64,000 nt of DNA, taken from Rhizobium sp. CC-YZS058 (lineage in GTDB: Bacteria; Pseudomonadota; Alphaproteobacteria; Rhizobiales; Rhizobiaceae). Where the stretch lies: the NCBI RefSeq assembly GCF_034720595.1, contig NZ_JAYESJ010000003.1, positions 1 through 64,000 of the forward strand, written 5' to 3'. The notes below the pieces were generated by a model that did no database searches, was not told where the DNA came from, and saw nothing but the letters and a program-made list of their open reading frames with translations. This document shows positions 15,469 through 39,342 of this stretch, piece by piece; within the stretch, counting starts at the first letter, position 1; each line of letters starts with the position of its first letter. The position numbers were made by a program, and so were the translations under genes.

Positions 15469-15801
15469 GTGTCCCGTCAAAGAGTCTATTCCAGGATCAC
15501 ACTCCAGGCGCTCATTATGCTCGGCAAGCTGATCCGCGTTGGGCGGACTCAGCGCGGCCTGACCGCGCAGGATCTGGCAGACCGCGCCGGTATCAGCCGC
15601 ACGACCTTGTCCAGCATCGAAAAAGGCGCGCCAGGTCCCGAGATCGGCATCGTCTTCGAAGTCGCCTCCATCGTCGGCATACGCCTCTTCGACTACGACG
15701 AGCGCATGGTCCAGATGCACAATGCCCGCCTCGACGAAAAACTGACCCTGCTGCCCAGAAGCGTCCGCAACGCCGTGAAGGAGGTCGATGATGACTTCTG
15801 A
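15469..15801 (+). CDS. HipB-type XRE-family antitoxin/repressor
   Basis: The 110-residue protein starts from a GTG at 15469. It carries an XRE helix-turn-helix: LGKLIRVGRTQRGLTAQDLA, DRAGISRTTLSSIEKG, then EVASIVGIRLFDYDE. It overlaps the HipA-type gene by 11 bp, the standard toxin-antitoxin coupling. The frame is open to an ATG at 15409, but that start lies inside an operator-like repeat, and an internal ATG at 15517 is also possible. It should neutralise the kinase and repress the operon. Confidence 0.8.
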   Translation: MSRQRVYSRITLQALIMLGKLIRVGRTQRGLTAQDLADRAGISRTTLSSIEKGAPGPEIGIVFEVASIVGIRLFDYDERMVQMHNARLDEKLTLLPRSVRNAVKEVDDDF

Positions 15802-17113
15802 GGCGGATGCTCGCGAAGCCTTCGTCTGGGTCTGGCTCCCGGGCGCAACGGAGCCGGTGGTTGCGGCCCGCCTCGATCAGGATGGCGAGCGCCTGCTCTT
15901 CACCTACGGGGCGAGCTACCGTCGCCGAAAAAGCGCCATTCCCATCTACGAGCCGGAACTGCCCCTCCAGGAAGGCACCATGGCGCCCATTCACGGCCTA
16001 TCGATGGCCAGCTGCATCCGCGACGGCTCGCCGGACGCGTGGGGACGCCGCGTCATCATCAATCGGCTGACGGGCAAGAAACCTGATGCTGCCGGCCTAC
16101 CCGAAATCAGCGAGCTCACCTTCCTGCTGCAGTCAGGCTCCGACCGGATTGGCGCTCTCGATTTCCAGGCATCGTCCACAGAATATATCCCCCGCCTTGC
16201 AGCACAGGCATCGCTTGACGAGCTTATGGAGGCAGCGACCCTCATTGAAGAAGGCGTCCCCTTGCCCCCGGCACTCGACCAGGCAATCAATCACGGCACG
16301 TCGATCGGCGGCGCGCGTCCCAAGGCACTGATCAATGACGGCGCGAAGAAATTCATCGCCAAATTCTCGGCCGCCAATGATACCTATAGCGTCGTAAAGG
16401 CCGAATTCATCGCGATGAAGCTGGCATCTGCCTGCGGACTGAACGCCGCGTTGGTATCGATGACTCGCGCCGCCCAAAAGGATGTGCTGCTTATCGAGCG
16501 CTTTGACCGCACACACACGAAAGGCGGTTGGACACGGCACGCTATGGTCTCAGCACTGACCATGCTTGGCCTTGACGAGATGATGGCACGCTACGCTTCC
16601 TACGAAGACCTAGCCGAACTCATCCGCCACCGCTTCAATGACCCAAAAGACACGCTCAAGGAGCTCTACGGACGGATGTGCTTCAACGTGCTGTGCGGCA
16701 ATACAGACGACCACGCCCGCAACCATGCCGCCTTCTGGGACGGCAAGATGCTCACGATCACGCCGGCCTACGACATCTGCCCTCAGGGCCGCACCGGCAG
16801 TGAAGCGACGCAAGCCATGCTCATCAAGGGCGAGGGCCGCGCCAGCACGCTCGCTACGTTGCTCGCCGCCGCGCCCGATTATCACTTGAGGGAGGCGGAA
16901 GCCGCCGCGCTGATCGAACAGCAGATCACAACCATCGCCACCCTCTGGAAAGAGGTCTGCGACGAAGCCGACCTCAGCCCCGTCGACCGCAAGCTGTTCG
17001 CCGGACGACAGTTTCTCAACAGCTATGCTCTCGACGGCCTCGATACCCACAAGGCGCTACAGGACACCTTTTACAACGGCCGCAACACGCTGCTCACAAG
17101 CGCAGGCGCCTGA
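15791..17113 (+). CDS. HipA-type serine/threonine kinase toxin
   Basis: The 440-residue protein has a HipA N-subdomain 1 region (PIHGLSMASCIRDGSPDAWG) and the conserved GTSIGGARPKALI loop. The catalytic segment is CGNTDDHARNHAAF, holding the catalytic Asp and the Asn; ITPAYDICP supplies the metal-binding Asp, and FIAKF the ATP-binding Lys. All key kinase residues are present, so it is probably active. HipA-type kinases phosphorylate aminoacyl-tRNA synthetases and arrest growth. AGGAGG lies 6 bp before the ATG at 15791 (ATG 15788 is the alternative). The substrate for this subfamily is not known from the sequence. Confidence 0.88.
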   Translation: MTSEADAREAFVWVWLPGATEPVVAARLDQDGERLLFTYGASYRRRKSAIPIYEPELPLQEGTMAPIHGLSMASCIRDGSPDAWGRRVIINRLTGKKPDAAGLPEISELTFLLQSGSDRIGALDFQASSTEYIPRLAAQASLDELMEAATLIEEGVPLPPALDQAINHGTSIGGARPKALINDGAKKFIAKFSAANDTYSVVKAEFIAMKLASACGLNAALVSMTRAAQKDVLLIERFDRTHTKGGWTRHAMVSALTMLGLDEMMARYASYEDLAELIRHRFNDPKDTLKELYGRMCFNVLCGNTDDHARNHAAFWDGKMLTITPAYDICPQGRTGSEATQAMLIKGEGRASTLATLLAAAPDYHLREAEAAALIEQQITTIATLWKEVCDEADLSPVDRKLFAGRQFLNSYALDGLDTHKALQDTFYNGRNTLLTSAGA

Positions 17114-17624: not shown

Positions 17625-18926
17625 TCATGTCATCAGGATCGCCCTGAAATCGTTCACATTGGTACCAGTCGGGCCTGTTTCGAAGAGGTCGCCGATCGCA
17701 GCAAAGGCCGAATAGCTGTCGTTGCGATTGAGGAGGCTGCGCGGATCAAGCCCGCAGGCGCGAAGCCGTCGGGCCGATGTCCCATCGGCGAAAGCGCCAG
17801 CATTGGTTTCCGAGCCATCGACGCCATCGGTATCAGCTGCCAGTAGCGCAATATCGAAACCATCGATGGCAAGCGCGCAGGCCAGCGCGAATTCCGCATT
17901 GCGCCCGCCCTTGCCGCCCTTCGAGCGCAGCGTCACGGTGGTCTCGCCGCCTGAGAGGAGGACGACCGGCTTTTCGAAGGGGCGGTTCCGGGTGGCGATC
18001 TCCCGGGCGAGCGCGGCATGCACGAAACCGACATCACGGGCCTCGCCTTCGATCGTATCGGACAGGATAACGGCCTCGATCCCGGATGCGCGCGCTGCGG
18101 CCGCGGCCGCTTCGAGCGACAGGCTGGCGGAGGCGACAATATGACAGCGATGTCCGGCAAGTCGGGCATCCTCCGAAAAGGGCGCGTCGGCGTCCGGCGA
18201 CGACAGGTGGGCGATGGCGCGTTCGCTAAGCGTCAGGCCATATTGCCGGACGATGTCGAGTGCGTCGTGGCGCGTCGTGTTGTCAGGCACGGTCGGGCCC
18301 GAGGCAACGTGGGCGGGGTTGTCGCCGGGGATGTCCGACATGATGAGGCTGACGACACGCGCCTTTGTTGCCGCCGCCAGCCGGCCGCCCTTAATCATCG
18401 ACAGGTGCTTGCGCACGACATTCATGGCCGAGATCGGCGCGCCGGAGGCGAGCAGCATCTCGTTCAGCGCGATCTCGTCAGCAAGCGTGAAGCCCGATGG
18501 CGGCGCGGGAAGCAGCGCCGATCCCCCGCCGGAGATGAGGGCGATCACCAGATCGTCCGCGGTGAGATCCTTCACGGCGTCCAACAGCCGCCTCGAGGCC
18601 GTAAGCCCGGCCGCATCCGGCACGGGGTGCGACGCCTCGATCACGTCGATCGACCGCGTGGCGCAGCCATATCCGTAACGCGTCACCACCACCCCGGACA
18701 GGGGACCGTCCCATAGAGCTTCGAGGGCGCGGGCCATCTGTGCGGCGCCTTTTCCGGCGCCGACGACGGCCGTGCGGCCTTTGGGCGGTGCAGGCAGATG
18801 GCGCCGCATGCCTTCTAGCGGATCGGCAGCGTCGACTGCCGCCCGAAAGAGGGTGGCGAGCAAGCGTCGGGCGTCGCTATCGGGACCATGAGGTCCCCCG
18901 ATGCGCGGCTGGTTCAAGGGCTCCAT
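17625..18926 (-). CDS. Glycerate 2-kinase (GckA/TtuD, MOFRL family)
   Basis: The 433-residue protein has the DUF4147/MOFRL architecture: VVGAGKGAAQMARAL, SHPVPDAAGL, ALISGGGSALLPAP, then VLLSGGETTVTLR, GGRNAEFALA, DTDGVDGSETNAGAFADG and a C-terminal FETGPTGTNVND. These are the signatures of bacterial glycerate 2-kinases, which make 2-phosphoglycerate from D-glycerate; TtuD homologues were historically called hydroxypyruvate reductases. AGGAGG abuts the ATG at 18926, so a TTG 9 bp downstream could be used. Last gene of the 12-gene operon; it would send the pathway's C3 product into glycolysis. Confidence 0.9.
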   Translation of the reverse strand: MEPLNQPRIGGPHGPDSDARRLLATLFRAAVDAADPLEGMRRHLPAPPKGRTAVVGAGKGAAQMARALEALWDGPLSGVVVTRYGYGCATRSIDVIEASHPVPDAAGLTASRRLLDAVKDLTADDLVIALISGGGSALLPAPPSGFTLADEIALNEMLLASGAPISAMNVVRKHLSMIKGGRLAAATKARVVSLIMSDIPGDNPAHVASGPTVPDNTTRHDALDIVRQYGLTLSERAIAHLSSPDADAPFSEDARLAGHRCHIVASASLSLEAAAAAARASGIEAVILSDTIEGEARDVGFVHAALAREIATRNRPFEKPVVLLSGGETTVTLRSKGGKGGRNAEFALACALAIDGFDIALLAADTDGVDGSETNAGAFADGTSARRLRACGLDPRSLLNRNDSYSAFAAIGDLFETGPTGTNVNDFRAILMT

Positions 18927-18986
18927 CCTCCTTCAAGACTCGAACGACGCGAGCGCCGCGTCACATCCGTCACGGGCCGGTTTGCA

Positions 18987-20372
18987 TCACCCCTGAAAGG
19001 GGCCTTCCAGAGCGTTTGCGCGCAGCGAAGCAGCCAGACCGTTGCTCTGCAACAGCACATCGCGCCCCGCCGCCTCTGCACCGTCGCTCACCAATCTGTC
19101 GAGCGCTTCGATCAGTCCGCGGGCTACGGCGCGCAGGGCGTCGATCCGCTCCGCATCGCCACGCAGTGCCTCCAGATCATTGGCCGTCACGCTACCGAGA
19201 CCGGCAGGTGTCCGGGCACCCGCGTCAACATAGCCCTCGGCCAGATCGCCGACGCGATTGCGCACCACGCGGTGCTTGATGGCATCAAGGATCTGGTCTA
19301 CCGCCTGAATCGCGCCCGACACGCGTGTCGGATGATCGGTGTCCGCGGTGGCATGCGGCAGCAGCGACAGCCGGGCGGCATGCTCCGGCAGAAGCGACAG
19401 ATATGGCACCATCGGACCTGACAGGGCACCGCTCTCGGCATCACTGAAAAGATCCGCATCGATGGCGGCGTGAGATATCTGGCCCGAGGCAAGGGCGGCG
19501 GCTAAGGCAGGAACATCGACCAGCTGGCCGCGATCGTAGTTGATCAAGACCGCGCCTTTCGCCAGCGCGGACAGGGCCTGCGTGCCGATCAGGCCCGTAT
19601 TGGCATGGCCGTCGGGACCAAGCGGACCGATGCCGAGATGAACGGACAGGACATCCGCGCCGGCGGCGGCATCGCTGACGCTCTCAGCATAGATGAAACC
19701 TTCGCTCTGGATCCATTCCTTGTGGCGGGGCCGAGCGAAGATGCGCACGGTCATCCCGAAGGCGCGCGCCAGTTTTGCGACTTCCCGGCCGATGTTGCCG
19801 TAGCCGATCACGGCGAAGACCCGTCCCTCCAGCTTGGCGGTCGGGAAACGCACGAGATCGCGGCCGGTGTCGAAACGACCGGCGGCGACCAGCCCATGCA
19901 TCTTCTCAACCGGCAAATCGGGACAGACGCGCAGCAGCGCTTTCATCACCATCTGCGCAGTGGCGCGCGCATTGATGCCTGGCGTGTTCATCAGCGGCGC
20001 TACGCCGCCCCGGCCGTCGCCACCACCCCAGCTGGCGGACCCCATATTGCCGGTCCCGGCGCCGATCCGCACGCCGCCACGATCGAAACGCACGTTCTTC
20101 GGAAGGAAGGTGGCCGCTGCGATGACCGCGTCGTAGAGACCGTCACCCGCTTCGGCCAGAAGCTCGGCTTCGGTCGACAGCATCGGCTGGTAATAGAAAT
20201 GCGGCCTGCCTGACTCCGGGGCCGACAGGGCACGCGCCGAGCCTTCATGGAAGACGCCGCCGCGGGTCTCGATATGCCGCTTGACCGCCGAATGATCGGG
20301 GCGGCCATCCGCACCGCGGGCAAGCCCCACGAGATCGACGATGAGGATTTTAGGCGTGGACGTGTCGGTCAT
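18987..20372 (-). CDS. D-2-hydroxyacid dehydrogenase with C-terminal extension
   Basis: In this 461-residue protein the NAD-binding GYGNIGREVAKLARAFGM begins at residue 190. Catalytic positions are Arg281 (NYDRGQLVD), an acidic residue near 313 (DLFSDAES) and His340 (LLPHATADTD), so the dehydrogenase core appears intact. About 95 residues after position 365 form an extra helical tail not found in typical 310-340-residue members. A glycine-rich insert (MGSASWGGGDGRGG) near 110 is also unusual. The start at 20372 has GGAGA upstream. Next to glycerate kinase it is best read as a hydroxypyruvate or tartronate-semialdehyde-type reductase; the substrate is inferred. Confidence 0.85.
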   Translation of the reverse strand: MTDTSTPKILIVDLVGLARGADGRPDHSAVKRHIETRGGVFHEGSARALSAPESGRPHFYYQPMLSTEAELLAEAGDGLYDAVIAAATFLPKNVRFDRGGVRIGAGTGNMGSASWGGGDGRGGVAPLMNTPGINARATAQMVMKALLRVCPDLPVEKMHGLVAAGRFDTGRDLVRFPTAKLEGRVFAVIGYGNIGREVAKLARAFGMTVRIFARPRHKEWIQSEGFIYAESVSDAAAGADVLSVHLGIGPLGPDGHANTGLIGTQALSALAKGAVLINYDRGQLVDVPALAAALASGQISHAAIDADLFSDAESGALSGPMVPYLSLLPEHAARLSLLPHATADTDHPTRVSGAIQAVDQILDAIKHRVVRNRVGDLAEGYVDAGARTPAGLGSVTANDLEALRGDAERIDALRAVARGLIEALDRLVSDGAEAAGRDVLLQSNGLAASLRANALEGPFQG

Positions 20373-20423
20373 CTTTTCTCCTGCGAGAGCTGGCGGATCT
20401 GCCGCCGGCCGCACCGCGCTCTT

Positions 20424-21857
20424 TCAAAACAGTTCGGAAACGAACTTGGTCCTCTGAAACGCCTCCAGCCCCTCGATCCCGCTTTCGGAACCGAAACCAG
20501 ATTCGTTGACCCCGCCAAACGGTGTCTCGGGCGTCGAGATCATCGTGTGGTTGACGCCGACGAGCCCGGCATCCAGCGCCATCTCCGCGTCACGCGCAGT
20601 CGCACCATCCCTGGTGAAGACGAAGGACGCTAGGCCGAAGGGAAGCGCATTGGCCCGCGTAATCACCTCGTCGAAGGTCGAGAACGGCATGATTGCGGCA
20701 ACCGGGCCGAACGGTTCTTCCGAAAGGATCCGGGCGCTTTCCGGAACGTTGTACAGCACGGTCGGCGCATAAAAATTGCCGGGCTGCTCGACGCGACGTC
20801 CGCCGGCCAGAAGCTCGGCTCCCTTGCCGACGGCGTCATCGACCAGCGCCTGGATCGCGTCGCAGCGGCGCGGGGCAATCATCGGGCCCATTCGCGTGTC
20901 GGGCTCGAGACCATTACCGAGCTTGAGCGCGGCCGCCTTTGCCGCCATGCCCTCGGCAAAGCGGGCCGCGATGCTCTCATGCACGAAGAAGCGCGTCGGC
21001 GAGGTGCAGACCTGACCGGCATTGCGGAACTTGGCCGCTGCCAGTGTCGCGACCGCGTGATCCACGTCGGCATCGGCGAAGACCAGCACGGGCGCATGGC
21101 CTCCGAGCTCCATCGTCGTACGCTTCAGCGTATCGGCCGCCCGCTTCTGCAGAAGCTTACCGACGGCTGTCGAGCCGGTCAGGGATACTTTTTTCGGGAT
21201 CGGCGAGGCGAGAAGGTGGCGCGACACGTCATCCGGCACACCGAAAACGAGGTTCAGGACGCCGTTGGGCAGGCCGGCATCCTGAAAGCAGCGGGCAAAC
21301 GCCACGGCCGTGCCGGGGGTTTCCTCGGCGGTCTTGAGGATGATCGTGCAACCGGCAGCGATCGCGCCGGAGATCTTGCGGATGACGTTCGAGGCGGGAA
21401 AATTCCAAGCGGCGAAGGCGACGACCACGCCCACCGGCTCCTTGTAGACCATCTGGCGCTGGCCCGGCACGCGACCCGGCACGATGCGCCCATAGGCGCG
21501 CTTGCCCTCCTCGGCATACCAGCGCGTCGCCTCGGCCGAGAAGGCCACCTCGCCGCGCGACTCGGCGAGCGGTTTGCCGTTTTCCATCGTCAGAACTCGC
21601 GCGATCATTTCCAGCCGGGCGTCGATCAGGTCGGCGGCTTTCATCATGATCTTGTAGCGGGCAACAGCGGTCTCAGCCTTCCAGGTGCCGAAGGCGCGCT
21701 GCGCCGCCGCAAGCGCCGCGTCAAGATCGGCGGCCGAGGCGTGCGGCACGGTGGCAATCTCGGCGCCGGTGGCGGGATTGACGAGCGGCTGCTCCTTGCC
21801 CTCGCTGCCCTTGCGGAACACGCCATCGATCAGCAGGTCGATTGTTTCTTCATACAT
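20424..21857 (-). CDS. NAD(P)-dependent succinate-semialdehyde-type dehydrogenase (GabD-like)
   Basis: This 477-residue aldehyde dehydrogenase has AAWNFPASNV, KTAEETPGTA, GSTAVGKLL, the catalytic Glu in MELGGHAPVLVF and the catalytic Cys in RNAGQVCTSPTRFF. It ends with NESGFGSESGIEGLEAF. The pattern is closest to the GabD/semialdehyde branch. GGAG sits 6 bp before the ATG. In this operon it could oxidise a semialdehyde released by the amine oxidase or aldolase steps. The preferred aldehyde is not readable from the sequence. Confidence 0.9.
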   Translation of the reverse strand: MYEETIDLLIDGVFRKGSEGKEQPLVNPATGAEIATVPHASAADLDAALAAAQRAFGTWKAETAVARYKIMMKAADLIDARLEMIARVLTMENGKPLAESRGEVAFSAEATRWYAEEGKRAYGRIVPGRVPGQRQMVYKEPVGVVVAFAAWNFPASNVIRKISGAIAAGCTIILKTAEETPGTAVAFARCFQDAGLPNGVLNLVFGVPDDVSRHLLASPIPKKVSLTGSTAVGKLLQKRAADTLKRTTMELGGHAPVLVFADADVDHAVATLAAAKFRNAGQVCTSPTRFFVHESIAARFAEGMAAKAAALKLGNGLEPDTRMGPMIAPRRCDAIQALVDDAVGKGAELLAGGRRVEQPGNFYAPTVLYNVPESARILSEEPFGPVAAIMPFSTFDEVITRANALPFGLASFVFTRDGATARDAEMALDAGLVGVNHTMISTPETPFGGVNESGFGSESGIEGLEAFQRTKFVSELF

Positions 21858-21902
21858 AGGTGTCTCCTTGTCCGGCGTCTCGGCCGGGTTGCCGTCGCCC
21901 GG

Positions 21903-23162
21903 TCAGAACCGGGACGAGCGGAAATGCGACAGGTCAATCGAAGGGGAGCGTCCGGTAGCGAGTTCTGCGATCAGCCGACCGGTCACGGAACCGCCCATCA
22001 GCCCCTGATGACCGTGGCCAAAGGCCAGGATGACATTGTCGTGGCGCGGTGCGGTCTCGATTACGGGGATGCTGTCGGGCATGCCCGGTCGGTTTCCCAT
22101 CCACCGTTCCATGCCGCCGAGGTCTGCGCCGGGGAACATATGAGCGGCCTGACGCAGCAGGATATCGGCCCGCCGCCAGTTGGGCTTCGCCTTCGGCCGG
22201 GCGAACTCCACCGTACCGGAAAGGCGCAGGCCGCCCTCCATCGGCGCGGCGACGAACTTGCGTTCGGCGGCGTTGACGTTGACCTTCAGACCCGTGTCGG
22301 CGTTCGGCAGCATGATGTGATAGCCGCGCTCGCTGATCAGCGGCACGCGCACGCCGACCTGCTTTGCGAAGGGGGACGAGAAAGCCCCGGCCGCGATCAC
22401 GACCTTGTCGGCGTCGACCACGCCGCCTTCCGTCGCGACACCCGTGACTCGGCCCTGTTGCACCACGAGTGAGCGAACAGTGTGACGGGTGAAGACGGCG
22501 CCCTTGGCGGCGGCGAGCTTTGCAATGGCGGCGACCAGGCGGCCCGGATTGGGGCACTGTCCCTGCTCGGGCAGGAAGACGCCGGCACGATAGTCGGTTG
22601 ATATGGCCGGCTCCAGCTCGCGCATCTGGCGGGCATCGAGGATCTCGACCTTGACGCCGCGTTCGCGACGCATGCCGATGGAAAGCGCGCTGCCTGCCGG
22701 TCCGTTCGGATTCTCATACGCAAAGAGCTGGCCGCGATGAAGGATCAGGTCCTCGCAGCCGGCCTCCTTCACGAGCGGCTCGTAGCAAGCAAGCGTCAGC
22801 CGGTTCAGCGCGATCATGCCATCCGAGATGCGCCTGACACGCGACAGGCGCGAATTGGCGAGGAAGCGCAGCAACCACGGCAAGGCGTGGGGCAGGTCGA
22901 AAAGGCGCAGGCCGATCGGTCCATCGGGGTCGAGCAGCATACCCGGCACCTGTCCGGCGATCCCCGGAAGGGAGTTGGGGATGCACGAGCCGGGGGAAAG
23001 CCCCCCGGCATTACCAAAGGAGCATTGCCCGGGGCTGCCAGGCTCCAGCGGATCGACCACCTTCACCGAGAAGCCTTCGTCCACGAGGGCATTGGCGGCA
23101 CAGACACCGATGATGCCAGCGCCGATAACGACCACTTTTCCGCCGCGGTAAGATGGCACCAT
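21903..23162 (-). CDS. DadA-like FAD-dependent D-amino acid dehydrogenase
   Basis: The 419-residue DAO-family flavoprotein has the N-terminal dinucleotide fold VVVIGAGIIGVCAANAL and a following SFGNAGGLSPG segment as in DadA. The C-terminal FAD region is ILAFGHGHQGLMGG, and VVIAAGAFSS lies between. AGGAG precedes the ATG at 23162. Coupled in one operon with a two-cysteine proline-racemase-family epimerase, it probably oxidises the D-epimer of a proline-like or hydroxylated amino acid, passing electrons to the respiratory chain. The frame is open far upstream of the start, but that part is a shadow of the aldolase gene. Confidence 0.88.
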   Translation of the reverse strand: MVPSYRGGKVVVIGAGIIGVCAANALVDEGFSVKVVDPLEPGSPGQCSFGNAGGLSPGSCIPNSLPGIAGQVPGMLLDPDGPIGLRLFDLPHALPWLLRFLANSRLSRVRRISDGMIALNRLTLACYEPLVKEAGCEDLILHRGQLFAYENPNGPAGSALSIGMRRERGVKVEILDARQMRELEPAISTDYRAGVFLPEQGQCPNPGRLVAAIAKLAAAKGAVFTRHTVRSLVVQQGRVTGVATEGGVVDADKVVIAAGAFSSPFAKQVGVRVPLISERGYHIMLPNADTGLKVNVNAAERKFVAAPMEGGLRLSGTVEFARPKAKPNWRRADILLRQAAHMFPGADLGGMERWMGNRPGMPDSIPVIETAPRHDNVILAFGHGHQGLMGGSVTGRLIAELATGRSPSIDLSHFRSSRF

Positions 23163-23203
23163 GGTGCGTGCTCCTGTCCTTCTTCTTCTGTTCTTTGGCG
23201 GGC

Positions 23204-23986
23204 TCAGGGAATGTTGGGCATCGGCGTGCCGGCGCGGAAGGCGGGAAGCGCGCGGCTGAAGGCCATCTGCAGCATGCGGAAGTCCGAGAGGTAGGCGATG
23301 AACTTGTAGCCGAGGTCGCGCATCTTCTGCCCGTATTCGATCGAACCGACATGGATGCCCGGTACGACGCCTGCCTTGATGCAGCGATCCGCGATCATGG
23401 CGATTGTTTCGTTCACGTCGTCCCATTTGGGATCGAAGCCGGGCGTGTAGCCCATGGAGACGGCAAGATCCGACGGACCGACGAAGATGGAATCGAGGCC
23501 GGGGGTCGCGAGGATCTCGTCGAGGTTGGCCACACCATCCTTGTGTTCGATCATCGCCATTGTGATGACTGTCGTGTTGGCATGGGCGAAATAGTCCGAA
23601 CCGCCATAAAGACCGGCGCGGATCGGGCCGACCGAGCGACCGCCTTCGGGGTAGTAGCGGCACGCCTCGACAAAGGCGCGGCATTCGGCGGCGGTGTTGA
23701 CCATCGGCACGATAACGCCATAGGCGCCGGCATCCAGCACGCGGCCGATGATAGCCGGGTCATTCCACGGCACCCGTACGAAGGGCGTCTTGTCAGTCGT
23801 GGAGATCGCCTGCAGCATCGACAGCATGTCGGAATAGTCGGCGCAGCCATGCTGCATATCGACGGTGACGGCATCGACGTCCTGCTGGGCCATCATCTCG
23901 GCCGACAGGCCCGACGGGATCGCCAGCCAGCCGGTGACGGCGCATTCGTCCTTGGACCACAGGGCCTTAACCTTGTTCTCACGCAT
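23204..23986 (-). CDS. HpcH/HpaI-family aldolase (2-oxo acid class II aldolase)
   Basis: This 260-residue TIM-barrel aldolase has VDAVTVDMQHG (His base region), FVRVPWNDPAIIGRVLDAGA (Arg), the metal-binding Glu in AMIEHKDGVANLDEI and the Asp in SIFVGPSDLAVSMG. Family members reversibly cleave 4-hydroxy-2-oxo acids to pyruvate, or sometimes hydroxypyruvate, plus an aldehyde. GGAA precedes the ATG. Its neighbours (two aldehyde dehydrogenases, a hydroxyacid dehydrogenase and glycerate kinase) are what would be needed to handle its products. Confidence 0.9.
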   Translation of the reverse strand: MRENKVKALWSKDECAVTGWLAIPSGLSAEMMAQQDVDAVTVDMQHGCADYSDMLSMLQAISTTDKTPFVRVPWNDPAIIGRVLDAGAYGVIVPMVNTAAECRAFVEACRYYPEGGRSVGPIRAGLYGGSDYFAHANTTVITMAMIEHKDGVANLDEILATPGLDSIFVGPSDLAVSMGYTPGFDPKWDDVNETIAMIADRCIKAGVVPGIHVGSIEYGQKMRDLGYKFIAYLSDFRMLQMAFSRALPAFRAGTPMPNIP

Positions 23987-24010
23987 GGGGAGTTCCTTTT
24001 TGTAATGCCA

Positions 24011-25702
24011 TCAGGAGTTGAGGATGAGATCGGCGGCCTTCTCGGCCATGGCGATCGTGGTGATGTTGGTGTTGGCCGCAATGACCGAGGGCATGGCGGA
24101 CGCGTCGACCACGCGCAGCCCTTCCACGCCGCGCACGCGGCACTGGTTGTCGAGCACGGCCATCGGGTCGTCGTCGCCGCCCATGCGGCAGCTGCAGGAG
24201 ACGTGCCAGCCGGACCAGACCGCCTTCTTCGCCCAGTCGACAATCAGGTCGCGGTTCTGCATCATCTGGTGCATCCGCTCGGTCGTGCCGAACTTGCGGC
24301 GTAGCAGAGTGTCGCGGAAGAAGGGCGCATAGTCGAACAGGAGCGCGGCGGTACCGGTCTTGACATAGTTCGACAGCTTGCGAACGGAGAGCGCTCGCGC
24401 CTCCTCCGTATAGCCAGCGAGAAACCAGGTGTTCACATGCGCCCGCACGCGCGGGTCCTCCATGATCCGGTAGATCCGCTCGAAGCCATCGACGAGCCGC
24501 ATCAGGTCGCGTTCGTCGCCGGCAAGGTTGAGGTTGATTATCGGCTCGTCACGCCAGTCGGACGACTTCAGGCTGACAGTGCCGCGCGAATAGGACTTGT
24601 TCACGCAGACATTCAGCGCGCCCATTGCCTTGCCGAGCGGATGCCAGCCCGCCCGGTTGACCGGCATCATCAGCATGTCCGACGGCGAACACCCCTCGTA
24701 ACCCGAGGAATAGCGCACGCCGAGGAAGATGTGACGGCGCTGCCCGGACTTCAGCCGGGCGGAGCGCTTGAAATGGGCCCCCACGGCAAGATGCGGGTGG
24801 TCCATCAGATTGGCGCCGACACCCGGCAGATTGGAGACAACCGGAATGCCAAGGGCGCGCAGGTCGGCCGCCGGGCCGATGCCGGCGCGCAGCAGGATCG
24901 GCGGCGTGTGCAGCGCACCGGCGCAGAGAATGACTTCGCCCGCCCGCCACAGTTCCGGCGGACGATCACCGGTATGGGCATGAACGCCGGTGATGCGCCT
25001 GCCCTCCACCTCCAGCCCTTCGACCTGGGTATTGGCAAAGATGTGCAGGTTCTTGCGGGCCCGGACCTCGCGGGTGAGATAACCGAGCGCCGTTGACACG
25101 CGGTGATCGTTCTCGTTGGCGAGCGGCAGTGGAAAGGAGCCATCGTCGATGGAGGCGTTATAGTCCTCCTGGTAAGGGGCGTCCTTCTTGGTCACCGCCA
25201 GCACCGAGCGCGTGAAGCCCGCCCAGTCCTTGGGGAAGACGCGCCGGATCGGCATCGGTCCGCTCTTTCCGTGCAGCGGGCCGTCGAAATCGAGATCGCG
25301 CTCCAGCTTGCGGAAATAGGGAAGCATATCCTCCCAGCTCCAGCCTGAAACGCCCATCGCTTGCCACTCGTCATAGTCGGCCGGCAGACCGCGAACGGCG
25401 AACTGGCCGTTGATCGAGGAGCCGCCGCCCATGACACGGGCCTGCTCGAGACGGGTCGGCGGAACGATCTCCGAGTTGGAGCGCGGATTGCGCGCGTAGA
25501 CGCGCAGTTTGGACCAATGGAACCGCGGATCGAAATAGGAAAGGCCGGGATAGCTGTCGGCAATCACATCCGGGACGTTGTCCGGCGGCGTATCAGGTCC
25601 CGCTTCCAGCAGCGCAACCTGTTTGGAGGGGTTTTCGGACAGGCGGCCCGCAAGCGCAGCGCCAGCCGACCCACCTCCCACAATGACGTAATCGTAGATC
25701 AT
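24011..25702 (-). CDS. GMC-family oxidoreductase (choline dehydrogenase-like)
   Basis: The 563-residue FAD enzyme begins with YVIVGGGSAGAALAGRL at the N-terminus, followed by RVMGGGSSINGQFAVRG (GMC signature 1) and CAGALHTPPILLRAGIG (signature 2). The C-terminal active site is GWHVSCSCRMG plus the Asn in AANTNIT. It oxidises a primary or secondary alcohol, type unknown. The ATG at 25702 lies 11 bp after the upstream stop; an ATG at 25732 would overlap the aldehyde dehydrogenase and adds residues before the FAD fold, so it is less likely. With the adjacent aldehyde dehydrogenase it forms an alcohol-to-acid module. Confidence 0.9.
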   Translation of the reverse strand: MIYDYVIVGGGSAGAALAGRLSENPSKQVALLEAGPDTPPDNVPDVIADSYPGLSYFDPRFHWSKLRVYARNPRSNSEIVPPTRLEQARVMGGGSSINGQFAVRGLPADYDEWQAMGVSGWSWEDMLPYFRKLERDLDFDGPLHGKSGPMPIRRVFPKDWAGFTRSVLAVTKKDAPYQEDYNASIDDGSFPLPLANENDHRVSTALGYLTREVRARKNLHIFANTQVEGLEVEGRRITGVHAHTGDRPPELWRAGEVILCAGALHTPPILLRAGIGPAADLRALGIPVVSNLPGVGANLMDHPHLAVGAHFKRSARLKSGQRRHIFLGVRYSSGYEGCSPSDMLMMPVNRAGWHPLGKAMGALNVCVNKSYSRGTVSLKSSDWRDEPIINLNLAGDERDLMRLVDGFERIYRIMEDPRVRAHVNTWFLAGYTEEARALSVRKLSNYVKTGTAALLFDYAPFFRDTLLRRKFGTTERMHQMMQNRDLIVDWAKKAVWSGWHVSCSCRMGGDDDPMAVLDNQCRVRGVEGLRVVDASAMPSVIAANTNITTIAMAEKAADLILNS

Positions 25703-25713
25703 TCGGGATGCTC

Positions 25714-27192
25714 TCAGAGATAGTTGATCCACACGGCCTTCTGCCGCGTGAATTCCTCGATGCCGGCGCGGCCCATGTCTTTGCCGAAGCCCGACCCCTT
25801 CCAGCCGCCGGCCGCATAGGTAAATTCAGGATCGCGTCCATGCTGATTGACCCAGACCATGCCGGCCTCCACGGCATCCGCGACTTTCATCGCGAGCTTC
25901 AGGTCCTGCGTGTGGACGGAGGCCGAAAGGCCGTAGGTGGGGTGCTGCGCCTCGGCGATGGCCTGCTCGATGTCGTCATAGGTCGTGACCGACATGACCG
26001 GACCGAAATACTCCTCACTAAAACCGACATTGTCGCGCGAGACTTTGGCGAGCACCGTTGGCGCGTAGAAGTTGCCTTCATTCGGGCCTTCCAGCCGTGT
26101 CGCGCCGGTCAGCACCTCCGCACCCTGCTTCACCGTCTCCTGCACCAGCGCGTCGATCCGATCGAACTGCCTTGCCGAGATGACGGGGGCAAAGGTGGTG
26201 GTCTCGTCCCAGGTGGGGCCGGCCTTGACCGCTTTCGTCTTGGCGATCACGCGGTCTATCAGTTCGTCGGAGATTGCGCTGTCGACGATGAGCCGCGAGG
26301 CGAGCGTACAGACCTGTCCGGCATTGACCATGAAGCCATTGGCAACGCGTGTCGCCACGGCATCCATGTCGCCTGGATTGCGAGTGACGATCTGCGGGCT
26401 CTTGCCACCGAGCTCCAGCACGACCGGCTTGATGCCCGACTGCGCGGCAAGTGACATGACCGCGGCCCCGGTGGCCGTGGAGCCGGTGAAGGAGACGATG
26501 CCGATGGCGGGATGAGCGACGATCGCGGCACCCGTGGTGTGGCCCCAGCCGTTGACCACATTGAGGAGGCCGCCCGGGAGCTCGGCCTCGGCTGCGCATT
26601 CGGCAAGCGCCAGAAGGCTGTGCGGCGTCAGCTCCGAGGTTTTCATTACGACGGCATTGCCGGCTGCCAGCGCAGGGGCGAACTTCCACGCCGCCGTGAT
26701 CATCGGAAAATTCCAAGGCACGATCGCGCCCGCGATGCCATAGGGTTCGCGCCGCGTGTAGCTCAGCGTAGCGGCCTTGGTGGTCGTGACGATGCCTTCC
26801 AGCTTGTCGCAATATTCGGCGAAGTATCGCACCACGCCGGCGGTGCGCACCGCATCCCCCGTGATCGTGCCCGCCACCAGACGGCTGGAGCCCGCAGCCT
26901 CGAGACGGCCAAGATACTCGGCTTTCTCCTCGATCTTTTCGGCAAAGCGGAAGAGCGCCCTGGCGCGGTCGCGCGGGTTCATCCGCGCCCAGCCGGAGGA
27001 GGCGAGGGCGGTTTTGGCAGCCGTGACCGCCAGATCGACGGCGGCCTGTCCACCATCCCTGATCACGCCCATCGGCTGCGCATCCGAGGGGCGCAGCACC
27101 GCGATCTCTTCGCCCGGCAGGTCGACAAAACTGCCGCCAATATGATGTCCCGAGGGGATGGTGAGGGTGTCGGGATTGAAGCTGAGCGACAT
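25714..27192 (-). CDS. Aldehyde dehydrogenase
   Basis: The 492-residue member of the ALDH superfamily has VPWNFPMITAAWKFAPALAA, MKTSELTPHSLL, FTGSTATGAAV, the general base Glu in VLELGGKSPQIV and the catalytic Cys in NAGQVCTLASRL. C-terminal GKDMGRAGIEEFTRQK is complete. GGAAAG precedes the ATG. It stands directly before the GMC oxidoreductase and probably converts the aldehyde made by that enzyme to an acid. Substrate unknown. Confidence 0.9.
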   Translation of the reverse strand: MSLSFNPDTLTIPSGHHIGGSFVDLPGEEIAVLRPSDAQPMGVIRDGGQAAVDLAVTAAKTALASSGWARMNPRDRARALFRFAEKIEEKAEYLGRLEAAGSSRLVAGTITGDAVRTAGVVRYFAEYCDKLEGIVTTTKAATLSYTRREPYGIAGAIVPWNFPMITAAWKFAPALAAGNAVVMKTSELTPHSLLALAECAAEAELPGGLLNVVNGWGHTTGAAIVAHPAIGIVSFTGSTATGAAVMSLAAQSGIKPVVLELGGKSPQIVTRNPGDMDAVATRVANGFMVNAGQVCTLASRLIVDSAISDELIDRVIAKTKAVKAGPTWDETTTFAPVISARQFDRIDALVQETVKQGAEVLTGATRLEGPNEGNFYAPTVLAKVSRDNVGFSEEYFGPVMSVTTYDDIEQAIAEAQHPTYGLSASVHTQDLKLAMKVADAVEAGMVWVNQHGRDPEFTYAAGGWKGSGFGKDMGRAGIEEFTRQKAVWINYL

Positions 27193-27307
27193 GAGCTTTC
27201 CTTCGTATGTGGCCTGCGCCTGGACGCAACGTGCCGCTCGGCCCCGCGACAGGGCCGACGCACGGATGAGAGGAGGGACGGACGGCTGCCCGTGGAAGCG
27301 TTCGGGA

Positions 27308-28120
27308 TCAACCGCCTTCCAGGAAGGGCCGCAGCAAATCCGCGGTTTCGTGGAAGCGGCCGACGAAGCTTTTTAGGCGTGGATGGGTCGGACGCAGCAA
27401 CACGTCCTTCGGCGGACCGTCCTCGGCGATCGTGCCGTGGTCGAGAAAGATTACGCGGTCGGCAATCTCGAAGGCAAAGCCGAGTTCGTGGGTAACAATG
27501 ACCATGGTCATGCCGCTGCGGGCAAGATCGACCATCGCCTTCATCACCTCGCCCACCAGTTCGGGATCGAGCGCCGATGTCGGCTCGTCGAAGAGCATGA
27601 CTTGGGGATGCATGGCGCAGGCCCGCGCAATGGCGACGCGCTGCTGCTGGCCACCGGACAGCTGGCGCGGATACTTGCCGACGTGATCCTGCAATCCCAT
27701 CTGGGCCAAAAGGTCCAGCGCCTCCCTGCGGGTCGTTTCCACATTCGCCTTCTTGACCGTCACCGGCCCTTCCATGACGTTTTCCAGCGCGGTCATGTGC
27801 GGAAACAGGTTGAACTGCTGGAACACCATGCCGGTCTGCGAACGGATGCGGTTCACCGTCCCTGCCGGCACGGCGTTGCCATCGCGCGCCGCCGGACTGG
27901 CATCATAGATCGCCGCGCCGCCGATGGTGATGCGGCCCGCAGTGGGCATGTTGAGGAGGTTGATGCAGCGCAGCAACGAGGTTTTGCCGGAGCCGGACGC
28001 CCCGATCAGCACGACCACTTCGCCGGCTTCCACGCAGAGATCGACACCCTGTAACACTTCGCGCTGGCCGAATTTTAGCCGCACGCCTTCGAGCTTCAAG
28101 AGAGGATCGGACTTGCTCAT
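27308..28120 (-). CDS. Polar amino acid ABC transporter ATP-binding protein
   Basis: This 270-residue ATPase is of the GlnQ/HisP class: Walker [21 protein letters not shown]-loop [12 protein letters not shown], signature [13 protein letters not shown], Walker [17 protein letters not shown] and a switch His in VTHELGF. The true start is the ATG at 28120, overlapping the permease stop by 4 bp; the longer open frame upstream is a shadow of the permease gene. A 115-bp gap separates it from the aldehyde dehydrogenase. Confidence 0.92.
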
Positions 28121-28773
28121 TTGACGCGCTCCGAGATGGTTTCCAGCTTGCGCGACAGGAAGGTCAGCGGAACAAGCAGAGCGAGGAACATGACGCCGAC
28201 CATGGTGTAGACTTCCATCGGCCGGTAGGTGAAGGAGCTGACGTAACTCGCTTGATACAGAAGGTCGGGCACGGTGATCATCGACATCAGCGTGGTGTTC
28301 TTGATCTGGATGATGGACTGGCCCGCAAGCGGCGGGATCATGCGGCGGAAGGCCTGCGGCAGGATCACGCGGCGCATGCGCTGGCCGTAGGTCATGCCGA
28401 GCGCGGTGGAGGCATCGGTCTGCCCCTTGTCGATCGACTGAACGCCGGCGCGCAGAATTTCCGCATAGAATGCGCCTGCATAGAGACTGAGGCCCGCAAA
28501 GCCGGCCCAGAACTTGGTGACCGCGAGACCCGCGAAAATGGGAAAGGCGTAATAGATCCACAGCAGGATCACCAGCAGCGGGATATTGCGGAAAATTTCG
28601 ACATAGACCCGTCCGACGAGGGACAAAGCACGGGACCCGGTGAGCTGTATCAAGCCGATGAACAATCCGATCACCAGACCTGCGGCGATGGAAATCGCCG
28701 AGTAGAACAGCGTGACCAGGAGCCCGTTCCAGAACAATGGCCAGTTCTGCTGAATGACGGAAATATCGAACAA
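28117..28773 (-). CDS. Polar amino acid ABC transporter permease (HisM/GlnP class)
   Basis: This 218-residue inner-membrane protein has about five hydrophobic segments. The family hallmark ([20 protein letters not shown]) and the EAA loop ([20 protein letters not shown]) are present. It is the only permease gene of the system, so it presumably forms a homodimer, unlike systems with two permeases. Confidence 0.92.
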
Positions 28774-28802
28774 AAGCGTGACTCCAGGGCTGGTTCGACT
28801 GG

Positions 28803-28853
28803 CCGGGCTTTGTGCCCGGTACGAGGACCTGCCGAGCCTGAGCCCGGCAGGTC
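28803..28853 (-). terminator. Two tandem hairpins after the amino acid binding-protein gene
   Basis: GACCTGCCG/CGGCAGGTC (28826-28853, perfect 9-bp stem) and CCGGGC/GCCCGG (28803-28819, perfect 6-bp stem) lie between the binding-protein stop and the permease start. No U-run follows on the minus strand. They likely protect the upstream message or reduce read-through, allowing more binding protein than membrane components. Confidence 0.55.
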
Positions 28854-28863
28854 TTTCGGCAGA

Positions 28864-29703
28864 TCAGAAGCTGAAGTTGCTGGGCAGGATCGACAGGTCG
28901 ATACCGCGATCTTCCCAGGACTTGGCCAGGCGCCCCTGGGCCAGGCCCAGCGATCGCTGTTGCTGGATCCAGTTGATCAGGAAGTTGATGAAGCCCTCAT
29001 TTCCCGGTTTGCGCGCGACGGCGAGCGTGGCCGGATTGCGCAGCATCGGCTCGGGAACCGAAACCTCGCCATTGACCTGCTTGGCGATCTGCAAAGCGTC
29101 GAAGATGGACTGGATCATGGCGTCGGCGCGACCGGCCTGCAGCTCCATGATTGCCAGATTGCGGTCCTCGACCACCGTGATCTTCGCCTTTGGCAGCAGC
29201 GACTCGGCAACGACCTGCATGGTCGAGCCCTTCTGGACGACAACGGTCTTGTCCGGCGAGTTCAGTTCGGCCCAGGTGGCGACCGGCTTGCCCTTCGGCG
29301 AGAAAACGCCCCAGGCATCCGTGAAGAGCGGCTCCCAGAGATAGTCGACTACCAGGCCGCGCTTCGGGTTCGGGTTCACGCCGATGGCGATATCGATCTT
29401 GTTGGACTGGAAATCGGCGGCGAGGTTGCCCCAGGTCGTCTCGACCGGAACGATCTTCACGCCGAGCGTCGTCGCCACGTCGGTCAGGAAATCGATGTAG
29501 AACCCGCTCCAGTTGCCGGTGGCCGGATCCTTGATGTAGCCGGGCTCCTCGCCGATCATGACGGGAACCTTGAGTTCGCCGCTGGCGCGGATCTGGTCGA
29601 TTACCGCCGAAGGGCCTTCCTGAGCGGCTGCAGGGTTCCATGCGGCAATAGCTACCGCCGCCCCCAGGGCGCATGCCCGGAGGATTTTTCCGAAAAATGA
29701 CAT
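28864..29703 (-). CDS. Polar amino acid ABC transporter periplasmic binding protein
   Basis: The 279-residue SBP_bac_3 protein has a Sec signal ([21 protein letters not shown] before QEGPSA). Domain sequences are [58 protein letters not shown] and [10 protein letters not shown]. These match the polar amino acid class. Its presence between the racemase-family gene and the permease indicates uptake of an amino acid or derivative that the operon degrades. Confidence 0.92.
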
Positions 29704-29745
29704 TTCAATTCTCCCTGTTTTGCGAAAGATTGAGGCCGGTTTTCC

Positions 29746-30738
29746 TCACCGGCTCAAGAACCCCTTGGAAAGTGGATCACCCTTTTCGAGGTAGAGTGTG
29801 CCCTGGGAGATAAGGTGAGCCTCTCCCCGGACGATGACGGAATAGCCCGTCGTACCAGCAACCTCGCTCTTTTCGGCGAGTTCGGCGGTAAATGGCACGC
29901 CGAAAATGTTCTCGGCGCGATAGGTATCGGTGTCGGAAAGCTCGCCACGCAGGAGCAGCTGCGCCAGTCGCGCGCAGGTGCCGGTGCCGCAGGGCGAACG
30001 ATCGTATTTATTGGGCGCCAGCACCAGGAACTGGCGCGAATGGCCTTGGCCAAGATTGCTGTAGAACAGGACCGACGGGGCAGGCAGGCCGAGCATCTCT
30101 GGCAGGCCGTCCGTGACGTCAGCAATCGCCTGCTTGATCTTCCAGCCGAGCGCAAGGTTTGCCGACGCCGTGTCGGGGGTCAGCGCCACACCCAGCTGAT
30201 CGGCATCCACCATCGCATACCACATGCCGGAATAGAGGATGTCCGTGCGGACCGCGCCGACCCCCTCGACATCGACCTCCAGCCCTTCGAAGCGCCTGTA
30301 GGCCGGGACATTCTTCAACGACACAGCGCCGAGACGCCCGTCTTCATGCCATTCCACCCGTACGTCGACGACGCCGGCCGGTGTCTCCAGAGTGAAGCGA
30401 TCGCCGCTCTCCTGAGAGATCGCGCCCGTGAAGGCGAGTGTCTTTGCAAGGCCGATCGTGCCATGACCGCACATGCCGAGGTAGACATAGGACGAGATGA
30501 AGATGGCCCCGAAATCCGCCACCTCCGAGGGGACGGGGATCAGCCCGACCATGGCCGCATGGCCACGCGGCTCGTGCAGCAAGGCGGACCTCAGGTGGTC
30601 GAAGCGACGCTCGAAGTCTTCACGCTTTTCGCGCACGCTGCGGCCATGAAGAGGCGGAATCCCGCCCAGCACGGCGCGCGTCGGATGCCCGGCCGTATGG
30701 GTGTCGATATAGGGGAAAGCCGCCTCGAGGCCGATCAT
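29746..30738 (-). CDS. Proline racemase-family epimerase (probable 4-hydroxyproline 2-epimerase type)
   Basis: In this 330-residue protein both catalytic positions are cysteine: GMCGHGTIGLAKTLAFTGA (first) and DRSPCGTGTCARLA (second). Two cysteines fit a racemase/epimerase; in the trans-3-hydroxyproline dehydratase branch one is usually Thr. The N-terminal DTHTAGHPTR and VPSEVADFGAIF also fit. The ATG at 30738 overlaps the end of the GntR gene, with a purine-rich GGAGAGGGG upstream; the longer frame is a shadow. It would interconvert the L and D epimers of the imported amino acid ahead of the DadA-like enzyme. Hydroxyproline is the first candidate substrate but not shown. Confidence 0.88.
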   Translation of the reverse strand: MIGLEAAFPYIDTHTAGHPTRAVLGGIPPLHGRSVREKREDFERRFDHLRSALLHEPRGHAAMVGLIPVPSEVADFGAIFISSYVYLGMCGHGTIGLAKTLAFTGAISQESGDRFTLETPAGVVDVRVEWHEDGRLGAVSLKNVPAYRRFEGLEVDVEGVGAVRTDILYSGMWYAMVDADQLGVALTPDTASANLALGWKIKQAIADVTDGLPEMLGLPAPSVLFYSNLGQGHSRQFLVLAPNKYDRSPCGTGTCARLAQLLLRGELSDTDTYRAENIFGVPFTAELAEKSEVAGTTGYSVIVRGEAHLISQGTLYLEKGDPLSKGFLSR

Positions 30739-30739
30739 C

Positions 30740-31423
30740 TTACCGCCCCTCTCCGAATTCGGCGCGGATCGCATCGCGGGTCTCGTGCCAGATTTTCTCG
30801 ATGAGATCGTGCTCCAGCCTATAAGCCTGCTCCGGCTGGCCATCGACAATCGCCCGGAAGACTCGCGCCGTGTCGTCGAGGGACAGATCAACGACAGAGC
30901 TGTCGTTGCGATAGAGATGGTAACGATAGCGCAGCGCCTGCTTCTCCAGCCCCTTCAGCAGGCGGCGAAGTGTCGCGTTATCGGCGATCTCGTAGATCAG
31001 CTGTGAGCCGCGCACATCATGCTGGAAGAACAGCCGGGCATTTTCCGCTTCCCGCGCCTGCTTCATATGGTCGAGGACATGCCAAAGCTGCTCCTTGAGC
31101 GCCCCGTTGGTCGAGCGGGCTGCCTGTTCCGCCGCAATGGCTTCGAGCGCGATGCGGCATCGATAGATGTCATCGAAATCCCGGAGCGACATGGGCGTGA
31201 CCCAGATGCCCTTGCGCGCCTCGCGCAGCACAAGACCGTCATTCTCCAGGGAGCGCAGCGCCTCGCGGGCCGGAGAACGACTGACACCGTATCGTTCGGC
31301 AACGTCTTCTTCGGTCAGGCGCTCGCTGGGCGCGAGCTCGAGAAAGACAATTGCCTCTTCCAGAACCGCCACGAGGTTGCCAGCGATCCCCGCTGAAAGC
31401 TTGTGAGAAAACGTCATATCCAT
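30740..31423 (-). CDS. GntR-family regulator, FCD subfamily
   Basis: In this 227-residue protein, residues 10-80 form the GntR winged helix (LTEEDVAERYGVSRSPAREA, LENDGLVLREARKGIWVTPM). The rest is an all-helical FCD ligand domain with metal-ligand type residues (DIYRCRIALEAIAAEQAA, HDVRGSQLIYEIADN, RLEHDLIEKIWHETR). It is first in the 12-gene operon and presumably the repressor responding to an acidic pathway intermediate. The start at 31423 has GGTGGG upstream; a Met six bases downstream is also possible. Confidence 0.9.
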   Translation of the reverse strand: MDMTFSHKLSAGIAGNLVAVLEEAIVFLELAPSERLTEEDVAERYGVSRSPAREALRSLENDGLVLREARKGIWVTPMSLRDFDDIYRCRIALEAIAAEQAARSTNGALKEQLWHVLDHMKQAREAENARLFFQHDVRGSQLIYEIADNATLRRLLKGLEKQALRYRYHLYRNDSSVVDLSLDDTARVFRAIVDGQPEQAYRLEHDLIEKIWHETRDAIRAEFGEGR

Positions 31424-31443: not shown

Positions 31444-31451
31444 TGTATACA
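31444..31451. promoter_or_regulatory. TGTATACA palindrome upstream of the GntR-headed operon
   Basis: A perfect 8-bp palindrome TGTATACA (CTGTATACAA in context) sits 21 bp before the GntR start codon. Short GTATAC-centred palindromes are common FCD-type GntR targets, so autoregulation of the whole operon is a reasonable inference. Chance occurrence of an 8-mer is not excluded. Confidence 0.4.
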
Positions 31452-34135: not shown

Positions 34136-34146
34136 GACGGATCCTC

Positions 34147-36237: not shown

Positions 36238-36249
36238 GCTCTGCTCCTG

Positions 36250-37925: not shown

Positions 37926-37952
37926 GGGTGGGATCCCTTCTGGAAACCAGCG

Positions 37953-37978
37953 CCGGCCCCCGACGGATCGGGGACCGG
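37953..37978 (-). terminator. Intercistronic hairpin after the CUT1 binding-protein gene
   Basis: CCCCGA-CGGA-TCGGGG forms a perfect 6-bp stem with a 4-nt loop, extended by flanking CCGG/CCGG pairing. It lies between the binding protein (stop at 38024) and the first permease (start at 37925). No U-run. Probably a stabilising or attenuating structure. Confidence 0.45.
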
Positions 37979-39328: not shown

Positions 39329-39342
39329 GATCATTCCTCCCT

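Follow-up and report, generated by a model that had tools for sequence, protein, structure and literature searches.

A conserved twelve-gene operon on a Rhizobium plasmid, related to hydroxyproline clusters and possibly degrading a hydroxylated ring amine

We describe a cluster of twelve genes in a 64-kb stretch of DNA from Rhizobium sp. CC-YZS058, here called the window, which is the initial 64 kb of contig C3 in a genome of 4.77 Mb and 4 contigs. Relatives place this genome in the Rhizobiaceae, and the closest named relative of the cluster, in Rhizobium sp. RU20A, has proteins 89–99% identical. The contig is at least 375 kb long and carries RepA/RepB/RepC-type genes at 58840–62455 of the window, and we therefore regard C3 as a repABC plasmid. 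The cluster consists of twelve minus-strand open reading frames (ORFs) running from 31423 down to 17625, with intergenic distances of -4 to 115 bp.

The first gene encodes a GntR/FCD transcriptional regulator (g01, 30740–31423; PF00392 and PF07729; window positions, minus strand for all twelve genes). It is followed by a proline-racemase-family protein with a predicted epimerase role (g02, 29746–30738; PF05544, 273 bits), which carries the two-Cys dyad motifs MCGHG and DRSPCGTGT, and by the parts of an ATP-binding cassette (ABC) transporter: a family-3 solute-binding protein (g03, 28864–29703; PF00497) whose top PDB matches are of the cyclohexadienyl-dehydratase type, a single amino-acid-type permease (g04, 28117–28773; PF00528, with TIGR01726 above its cut-off), and an ATPase (g05, 27308–28120; PF00005). 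Next come an aminobutyraldehyde/betaine-aldehyde-dehydrogenase-like aldehyde dehydrogenase (ALDH) that we call ALDH1 (g06, 25714–27192; PF00171; best NCBIfam match PRK13473, 414 bits, below its cut-off of 615), a choline-dehydrogenase-like GMC oxidoreductase (g07, 24011–25702; PF00732 and PF05199; PRK02106, 330 bits, cut-off 605), an HpcH/HpaI-family class II aldolase (g08, 23204–23986; PF03328) whose best PDB relatives are hydroxyketoacid aldolase chains (6r62 and variants), and a D-amino-acid-oxidase/dehydrogenase-like protein dependent on flavin adenine dinucleotide (FAD) (g09, 21903–23162; PF01266, 218 bits; PRK00711, 208 bits, cut-off 383). The last three genes encode a succinate-semialdehyde-dehydrogenase-like enzyme, ALDH2 (g10, 20424–21857; PF00171; TIGR01780, 493 bits, cut-off 646), a long D-2-hydroxyacid dehydrogenase of 461 amino acids (g11, 18987–20372; PF02826 at residues 159–305, 95.7 bits), and a protein with the DUF4147 and MOFRL domains that mark a glycerate 2-kinase (g12, 17625–18926; PF13660 and PF05161; NF041176, 246 bits, cut-off 550).

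Among the NCBIfam families listed (the best 25 for the ATPase, both ALDHs, and the oxidase), none of the twelve genes reaches an equivalog cut-off, and names such as "DadA-like" and "hydroxypyruvate-type reductase" are therefore family-level names. An earlier note on this DNA had used such names, and they are sound at that level, with no equivalog match behind them. Its layout of twelve genes on one strand with gaps of at most 115 bp is borne out by the ORF map, and Pfam supports at family level its ABC importer, two-Cys racemase homologue, FAD oxidase, HpcH aldolase, reductase, and glycerate kinase. Its gene list omitted the GMC oxidoreductase; the operon has no aldehyde dehydrogenases besides the two ALDHs.

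An operator-like palindrome, TGTATACA (31444–31451, strand not assigned), is present as a single copy in the 64 kb, 21–28 bp ahead of the GntR start. In all nine other clusters of the same kind (type A, defined below), a TGTATAC core begins 15–46 bp before the aligned start of the regulator gene, and the 115-bp gap before ALDH1 contains no operator-like site. Sites resembling sigma-70 promoters number four, compared with 2.2 ± 1.6 expected from shuffles, which is no clear excess; of the two on the coding strand, one precedes the regulator by about 400 bp and the other is inside the ATPase gene (28099–28072). Five terminator-like sites were found, none of them on the coding strand. A GC-rich hairpin in the gap between the binding-protein and permease genes (28826–28853, minus strand), recognizable by eye in all seven orthologues printed, is ordinary for transporter operons. 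The conserved operator-like site thus supports the prediction that the twelve genes form a single GntR-controlled unit. At family level, the single regulated catabolic operon proposed in the earlier note is supported.

The twelve-gene cluster is real and conserved. We define type A by the presence of the oxidase and the HpcH aldolase without a DapA-family gene, and count 10 such loci including the window. The order g01–g09 is kept in all nine others, and the succession ALDH1-GMC-HpcH-oxidase is fixed in 10 of 10. An aldolase scan of the genome collection led to six loci, all with g01–g11, one with ALDH2 on the divergent side and two with an adjacent glycerate kinase; the same gene set, with the kinase and ALDH2 divergent, is carried on a Rhizobium sp. 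ACO-34A plasmid. Two loci from the same order, L064 and L065, keep g01–g09 with one extra ALDH gene inserted between the ATPase and ALDH1, and lack g10, g11, and the kinase within the stretch covered, which was extended by 18 kb for L064 and ends with the contig about 1 kb past the oxidase for L065. In total, g01–g09 occur in 10/10 type-A loci and g11 in 8/10, and 4/10 have a glycerate kinase next to the cluster. Across the phylum, the aldolase matched 6 of 398 genomes at 1e-68 (own genome included, as in all counts of this kind), and none of the other five matches lies in a type-A cluster.

Searches with other genes of the operon revealed two related kinds of cluster. Of 297 genomes of the order, nine contain a match to the epimerase (1e-75) and ten a match to the binding protein (1e-50); of 385 genomes of the class, two match the binding protein at 1e-60. 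All 10 binding-protein genomes of the order sample were opened and comprise three of type A and seven of type B, with GMC and ALDH1 in every one. Type B, of which eight loci were opened (L066–L071, L074, and L113), contains a regulator-fused racemase homologue, the transporter, a DapA-family gene, a racemase homologue B, ALDH1, GMC, a racemase homologue C (7/8), and a terminal ALDH; GMC with ALDH1, DapA, and homologue B are each present in 8/8, and the aldolase, oxidase, g11, and kinase in 0/8. The putative type-B regulator has helix-turn-helix, cupin, and C-terminal proline-racemase domains by Pfam (L066:47-1780; L070:4237-6165, which adds an N-terminal MerR domain), in frames of 577–721 amino acids in all six measured; in L066 its second Cys motif reads SPGVTG, an altered form, and the racemase fold has apparently been reused as a sensor. 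Type C comes from the nine plasmid records that matched the epimerase: of five opened, H3 is type A and H4, H5, H6, and H9 are type C or C-like, all four on plasmids of legume-isolated bacteria, and those left unopened are H1 and H2 (Shinella, with GMC and aldolase matches nearby), H7, and H8. The four type-C loci have DapA (4/4), a relative of ALDH2 (48–49% identical, 4/4), and the oxidase (3/4); the H9 locus (L088) also has homologue B, and some 8 kb separate its DapA group from its epimerase and oxidase. Type C mostly follows the canonical hydroxyproline logic of epimerase, D-oxidase, DapA, and ALDH.

Comparison of the three kinds shows an exchange of modules between related clusters. The HpcH aldolase and DapA are mutually exclusive (HpcH in A 10/10, B 0/8, C 0/4; DapA in A 0/10, B 8/8, C 4/4). 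GMC and ALDH1 are present in A (10/10) and B (8/8) and absent from C (0/4), which suggests that a primary alcohol is converted to an acid in A and B. The oxidase is found in 10/10 A and 0/8 B loci, type B having a further racemase homologue instead (8/8), and g11 and the adjacent kinase are likewise absent from all eight B loci. Proteins of the operon are 47–50% (binding protein), 48–51% (epimerase), and 48–49% (ALDH) identical to their type-C counterparts, and because transporter, epimerase, and ALDH2 are all kin to those of type C, the operon looks like an offshoot of the hydroxyproline family.

Family-3 binding proteins for alpha-amino acids use an Arg for the carboxylate and an Asp for the alpha-amino group; in g03 the position aligned with the Asp of AncCDT-1 is Ser, and the Arg is retained. 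The oxidase g09 agrees with D-hydroxyproline oxidases of the DAO family at family level only. The 4-hydroxyproline 2-epimerase subfamily is described as having His at site 4, Cys or Tyr at site 5, and Ser or Val at site 1 (PMC4364671). Having Val at site 1, Ser at site 4, and Leu at site 5, g02 agrees at the first of the three, and it also lacks the Phe at sites 1 and 5 of proline racemase proper. The same Ser and Leu recur in type-C epimerases, and sites 4 and 5 therefore do not separate A from C. The genome encodes a second racemase homologue (30% identical, C1:3425974) with a Ser/Cys-type dyad.

GMC and ALDH1 form a conserved adjacent pair, a pairing that points to a substrate with a primary alcohol. 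The GMC family alone does not name that substrate: the plasmid search listed the best 30 of 55 matching records, and six annotated plasmid stretches with GMC relatives (44–47% identity) show mixed contexts, namely an amino-acid-type ABC transporter with an ALDH, a Lar-type cluster with an ALDH, UbiD/UbiX genes, or no evident partner; a seventh stretch carries no annotation. A walnut Agrobacterium plasmid has a short amino-acid-type ABC, GMC, and ALDH cluster (L081:6322-12189), and the matches to GMC include at least 26 Agrobacterium records. In nectrisine biosynthesis, 4-amino-4-deoxyarabinitol is known to undergo a GMC-type oxidation (PMC4718913). ALDH2 scores 325.8 bits against the cut-off of 770 for the alpha-ketoglutaric semialdehyde (alpha-KGSA) dehydrogenase model NF042993, its best match being the succinate-semialdehyde dehydrogenase family.

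The aldolase g08 retains the metal ligands and catalytic His and Arg of its family (E147, D173, H46, and R71). The Sphingomonas wittichii hydroxyketoacid aldolase (SwHKA, 6r62), which binds and uses hydroxypyruvate (PMC10099721), has the same residues at E145, D171, H44, and R69, and also at S116; it differs in that its F210 is His (H212) and its R120 is Ile (I122) in g08. The g11 AlphaFold model (460 residues; predicted local distance difference test score, pLDDT, 89.4) has a D-2-hydroxyacid dehydrogenase fold with C-terminal helices; its best Foldseek match is D-lactate dehydrogenase 5z20 (E 3.6e-16, TMt 0.70), and the top 50 include PHGDH, CtBP, and glyoxylate/hydroxypyruvate reductases. 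Among the 297 genomes sampled from the order, 31 (own included) have g11 homologues (54–63% identical) at 1e-60, and for 25 of the 33 matches the open frame is at least 839 amino acids long. Three of these long frames were read (L014, nucleotides 1-2898 of that locus; L019; L025), and each has an extra, aminotransferase-like N-terminal region, which in L014 gives a weak NCBIfam match to phosphoserine transaminase (3.9e-14) and no Pfam match at 1e-6; it fits serine/hydroxypyruvate/glycerate chemistry and does not decide it. The otherwise different cluster L044 combines an HpcH-family aldolase with homologues of g11 (56% identical) and of the kinase g12 (71%), and in L025 the long g11 form is linked to a 29% kinase relative; these linkages support a glycerate-forming role for g11. 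The L044 cluster (L044:333-10707) holds a lyxose-isomerase-like gene, the glycerate kinase, a sugar ABC transporter, the HpcH-family aldolase, and the g11 homologue.

From this gene content we propose, tentatively and at somewhat less than an even chance, that the plasmid operon serves the uptake and complete breakdown of a polyhydroxylated, proline-like ring amine bearing a primary alcohol. After ABC import of the hydroxylated ring amine, GMC and then ALDH1 would oxidize its -CH2OH to -COOH, yielding an imino acid of the 3,4-dihydroxyproline type, whose C2 the two-Cys epimerase g02 would invert. The D-oxidase g09 would then form a ring imine that equilibrates with the open-chain 5-amino-3,4-dihydroxy-2-oxopentanoate; because an imine with both 3-OH and 4-OH opens to a 3,4-dihydroxy-2-oxo acid, it would be a natural retro-aldol substrate giving hydroxypyruvate, and g08 would release hydroxypyruvate and aminoacetaldehyde. 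ALDH2 would convert aminoacetaldehyde to glycine, and for a hydroxypyruvate product the obvious continuation would be its reduction to D-glycerate by g11 and phosphorylation to 2-phosphoglycerate by g12. Type B would reach the same oxidation level by eliminating the 3-hydroxyl before DapA and ALDH act, in which case a further racemase homologue without an oxidase is what one would expect, and in type C the oxidase would make pyrroline-4-hydroxy-2-carboxylate for DapA and ALDH. Elimination of the 3-hydroxyl is possible within the racemase superfamily (PMC4113996), and a 3,4-dihydroxyproline was a weak, slow substrate of LhpI, a dehydratase of another family (PMC5144071). A 2-hydroxymethyl-3,4-dihydroxypyrrolidine would satisfy all that the exchange among A, B, and C demands. 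An imino-pentitol, for instance 1,4-dideoxy-1,4-imino-arabinitol, would be a likely example. The full scheme, in which a polyhydroxylated pyrrolidine iminosugar (or 3,4-dihydroxyproline) passes through hydroxymethyl oxidation, epimerization, oxidation, and retro-aldol cleavage, its carbon enters as glycine and 2-phosphoglycerate, and type B dehydrates the same intermediate, is doubtful as a whole; we know of no such pathway described for iminosugars or 3,4-dihydroxyproline. If true, bacteria could use such a pathway to grow on glycosidase-inhibiting plant iminosugars or dihydroxyprolines, and a hydroxypyruvate-releasing HpcH/HpaI aldolase would gain a physiological setting. The exchange of ring-breaking enzymes within one transporter lineage turns an unnamed cluster into a short, testable list of substrates and reactions.

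Several observations weigh against this proposal. All 18 binding proteins aligned, drawn from types A, B, and C, retain R115 (NPNP-[KQR]-RG motif). An Arg of this kind in amino-acid binding proteins holds the ligand carboxylate, and the imported ligand may therefore already be an acid. Types A and B alternate between the same two ALDH subfamilies (8:2 in A, 6:2 in B), a pattern that would suit a single shared aldehyde, possibly alpha-KGSA; the alpha-KGSA-dehydrogenase-like form that alternates with ALDH2 scores 517 bits (cut-off 770) over a matched 434 amino acids. Homologue B of type B, taken above as the dehydratase, has two Cys in 6/6 read, the usual epimerase pattern, whereas dehydratases of the superfamily carry Cys/Thr or Ser/Thr (PMC4113996). 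In the aldolase, the His at H212 is shared by nine of the ten relatives that lie outside type A (L095–L103; SwHKA not counted), and only the distant L044 protein has Glu there. Neither L064 nor L065 yielded a g11, and six of the ten type-A loci have no kinase nearby.

The retained carboxylate-type Arg and the alternation of ALDH2-type and alpha-KGSA-dehydrogenase-like ALDHs in A and B would both suit a 4-hydroxyproline-like route in which HpcH replaces DapA, either cleaving open pyrroline-4-hydroxy-2-carboxylate to pyruvate and aminoacetaldehyde or deaminating it to alpha-KGSA for ALDH2. Such a route also accords with the epimerase, transporter, and ALDH homologues that accompany DapA in type C, with the oxidase in three of four, and with the Ser and Leu shared by A and C epimerases; it leaves unexplained GMC and ALDH1, with their distribution over A, B, and C, as well as g11 (8/10) and the glycerate kinase (4/10), and we consider it unlikely. 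The same Arg, taken together with the conserved GMC-ALDH1 pair, could instead reflect a substrate with both a carboxylate and a primary alcohol (e.g., 5-hydroxymethyl-hydroxyproline), to which GMC and ALDH1 would add a second carboxylate before the aldolase frees a three-carbon acid from the dicarboxylate; this would probably require extra steps for an aminomalonate-type aldehyde and give the type-B DapA no obvious role, and we think it improbable to a similar degree.

A sugar-acid route, in which a GarL-like aldolase yields pyruvate and tartronate semialdehyde for reduction to glycerate and phosphorylation, is brought to mind by two g08 relatives (47–48%) in annotated galactarate/glucarate clusters with a tartronate-semialdehyde (2-hydroxy-3-oxopropionate) reductase, one of them also with a DUF4147 kinase. 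Since the twelve genes include neither a sugar-acid dehydratase nor that reductase, and the amino-acid-type transporter, epimerase, and D-amino-acid oxidase would be left without a role, it is very improbable. Two unrelated pathways might also share the operon, imino-acid degradation and an alcohol/aldehyde or glycerate module, as the variable operon end would allow (kinase and ALDH2 divergent in L077, ALDH2 in L043, and no nearby g11 or kinase in L064 and L065), together with the promoter-like site inside the ATPase gene; the invariant ALDH1-GMC-HpcH-oxidase order in 10/10 loci and the one operator-like site argue against this, and it seems quite unlikely. Two further ideas were discarded. 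An N-substituted proline, with GMC and ALDH1 acting on an N-hydroxyalkyl group and the oxidase as an N-dealkylase, was rejected because type B has the GMC-ALDH1 pair without an oxidase. A choice of aldolase donor based on H212 and I122 was dropped, as these positions fail to tell g08 apart from aldolases of glucarate/galactarate clusters: the I122 position is Ile in 4 of the 10 relatives (L095, L098, L101, and L102; Val, Thr, Ser, or Ala in the others), and L101 and L102, with both His and Ile, sit in annotated galactarate/glucarate clusters.

Around the operon, a HipA-type homologue (HipA_C and Couple_hipA; 15788–17113, plus strand) lies beside its end. Sugar-type ABC transporter genes and an ADP-ribosylglycohydrolase-family protein of 697–700 amino acids occupy 33077–39634, and an RTX calcium-binding-repeat protein is encoded at 48310–49779 (plus strand).

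Our literature search found no paper on this cluster, which is weak evidence of absence given that most subscription papers fall outside its coverage. The canonical trans-4-hydroxy-L-proline pathway comprises an epimerase, a cis-hydroxyproline (cHyp) oxidase, a pyrroline-4-hydroxy-2-carboxylate (Pyr4H2C) deaminase of the dihydrodipicolinate synthase (DHDPS) family, and an alpha-KGSA dehydrogenase (PMC4113996); the type-C gene set matches the set given there, and the main text of that paper contains neither "aldolase" nor "choline". With this pathway the operon shares a two-Cys racemase homologue, an FAD oxidase, an ALDH, and a transporter kin to that of type C; unlike it, the operon lacks DapA and has GMC with ALDH1, the HpcH aldolase, g11, and a glycerate kinase. 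The earlier note rightly reported no DapA-type deaminase (0/10 type-A loci; six matches in the genome, the best 30% identical, none close), and its statement that this is not the known hydroxyproline pathway is correct for the canonical one and too flat otherwise, since transporter, epimerase, and ALDH2 are related to type-C clusters. The adjacency of g06 and g07 resembles the choline-to-betaine pair BetA/BetB, an adjacent GMC dehydrogenase and aldehyde dehydrogenase, yet both proteins fall far below the NCBIfam cut-offs for choline dehydrogenase and betaine-aldehyde dehydrogenase. With the glucarate/galactarate pathway (GarL-type aldolase and glycerate kinase) the operon has the aldolase family and the glycerate kinase in common, but no sugar-acid dehydratase or tartronate-semialdehyde reductase. 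With type B it shares the transporter, ALDH1, GMC, racemase homologues, and a terminal ALDH, type B having DapA and extra racemase homologues where the operon has the oxidase, aldolase, and glycerate route. The novelty is the combination of GMC and ALDH1 with an HpcH aldolase inside a hydroxyproline-related lineage, and the operon seems to be an offshoot of hydroxyproline degradation that cuts its substrate by a different chemical step.

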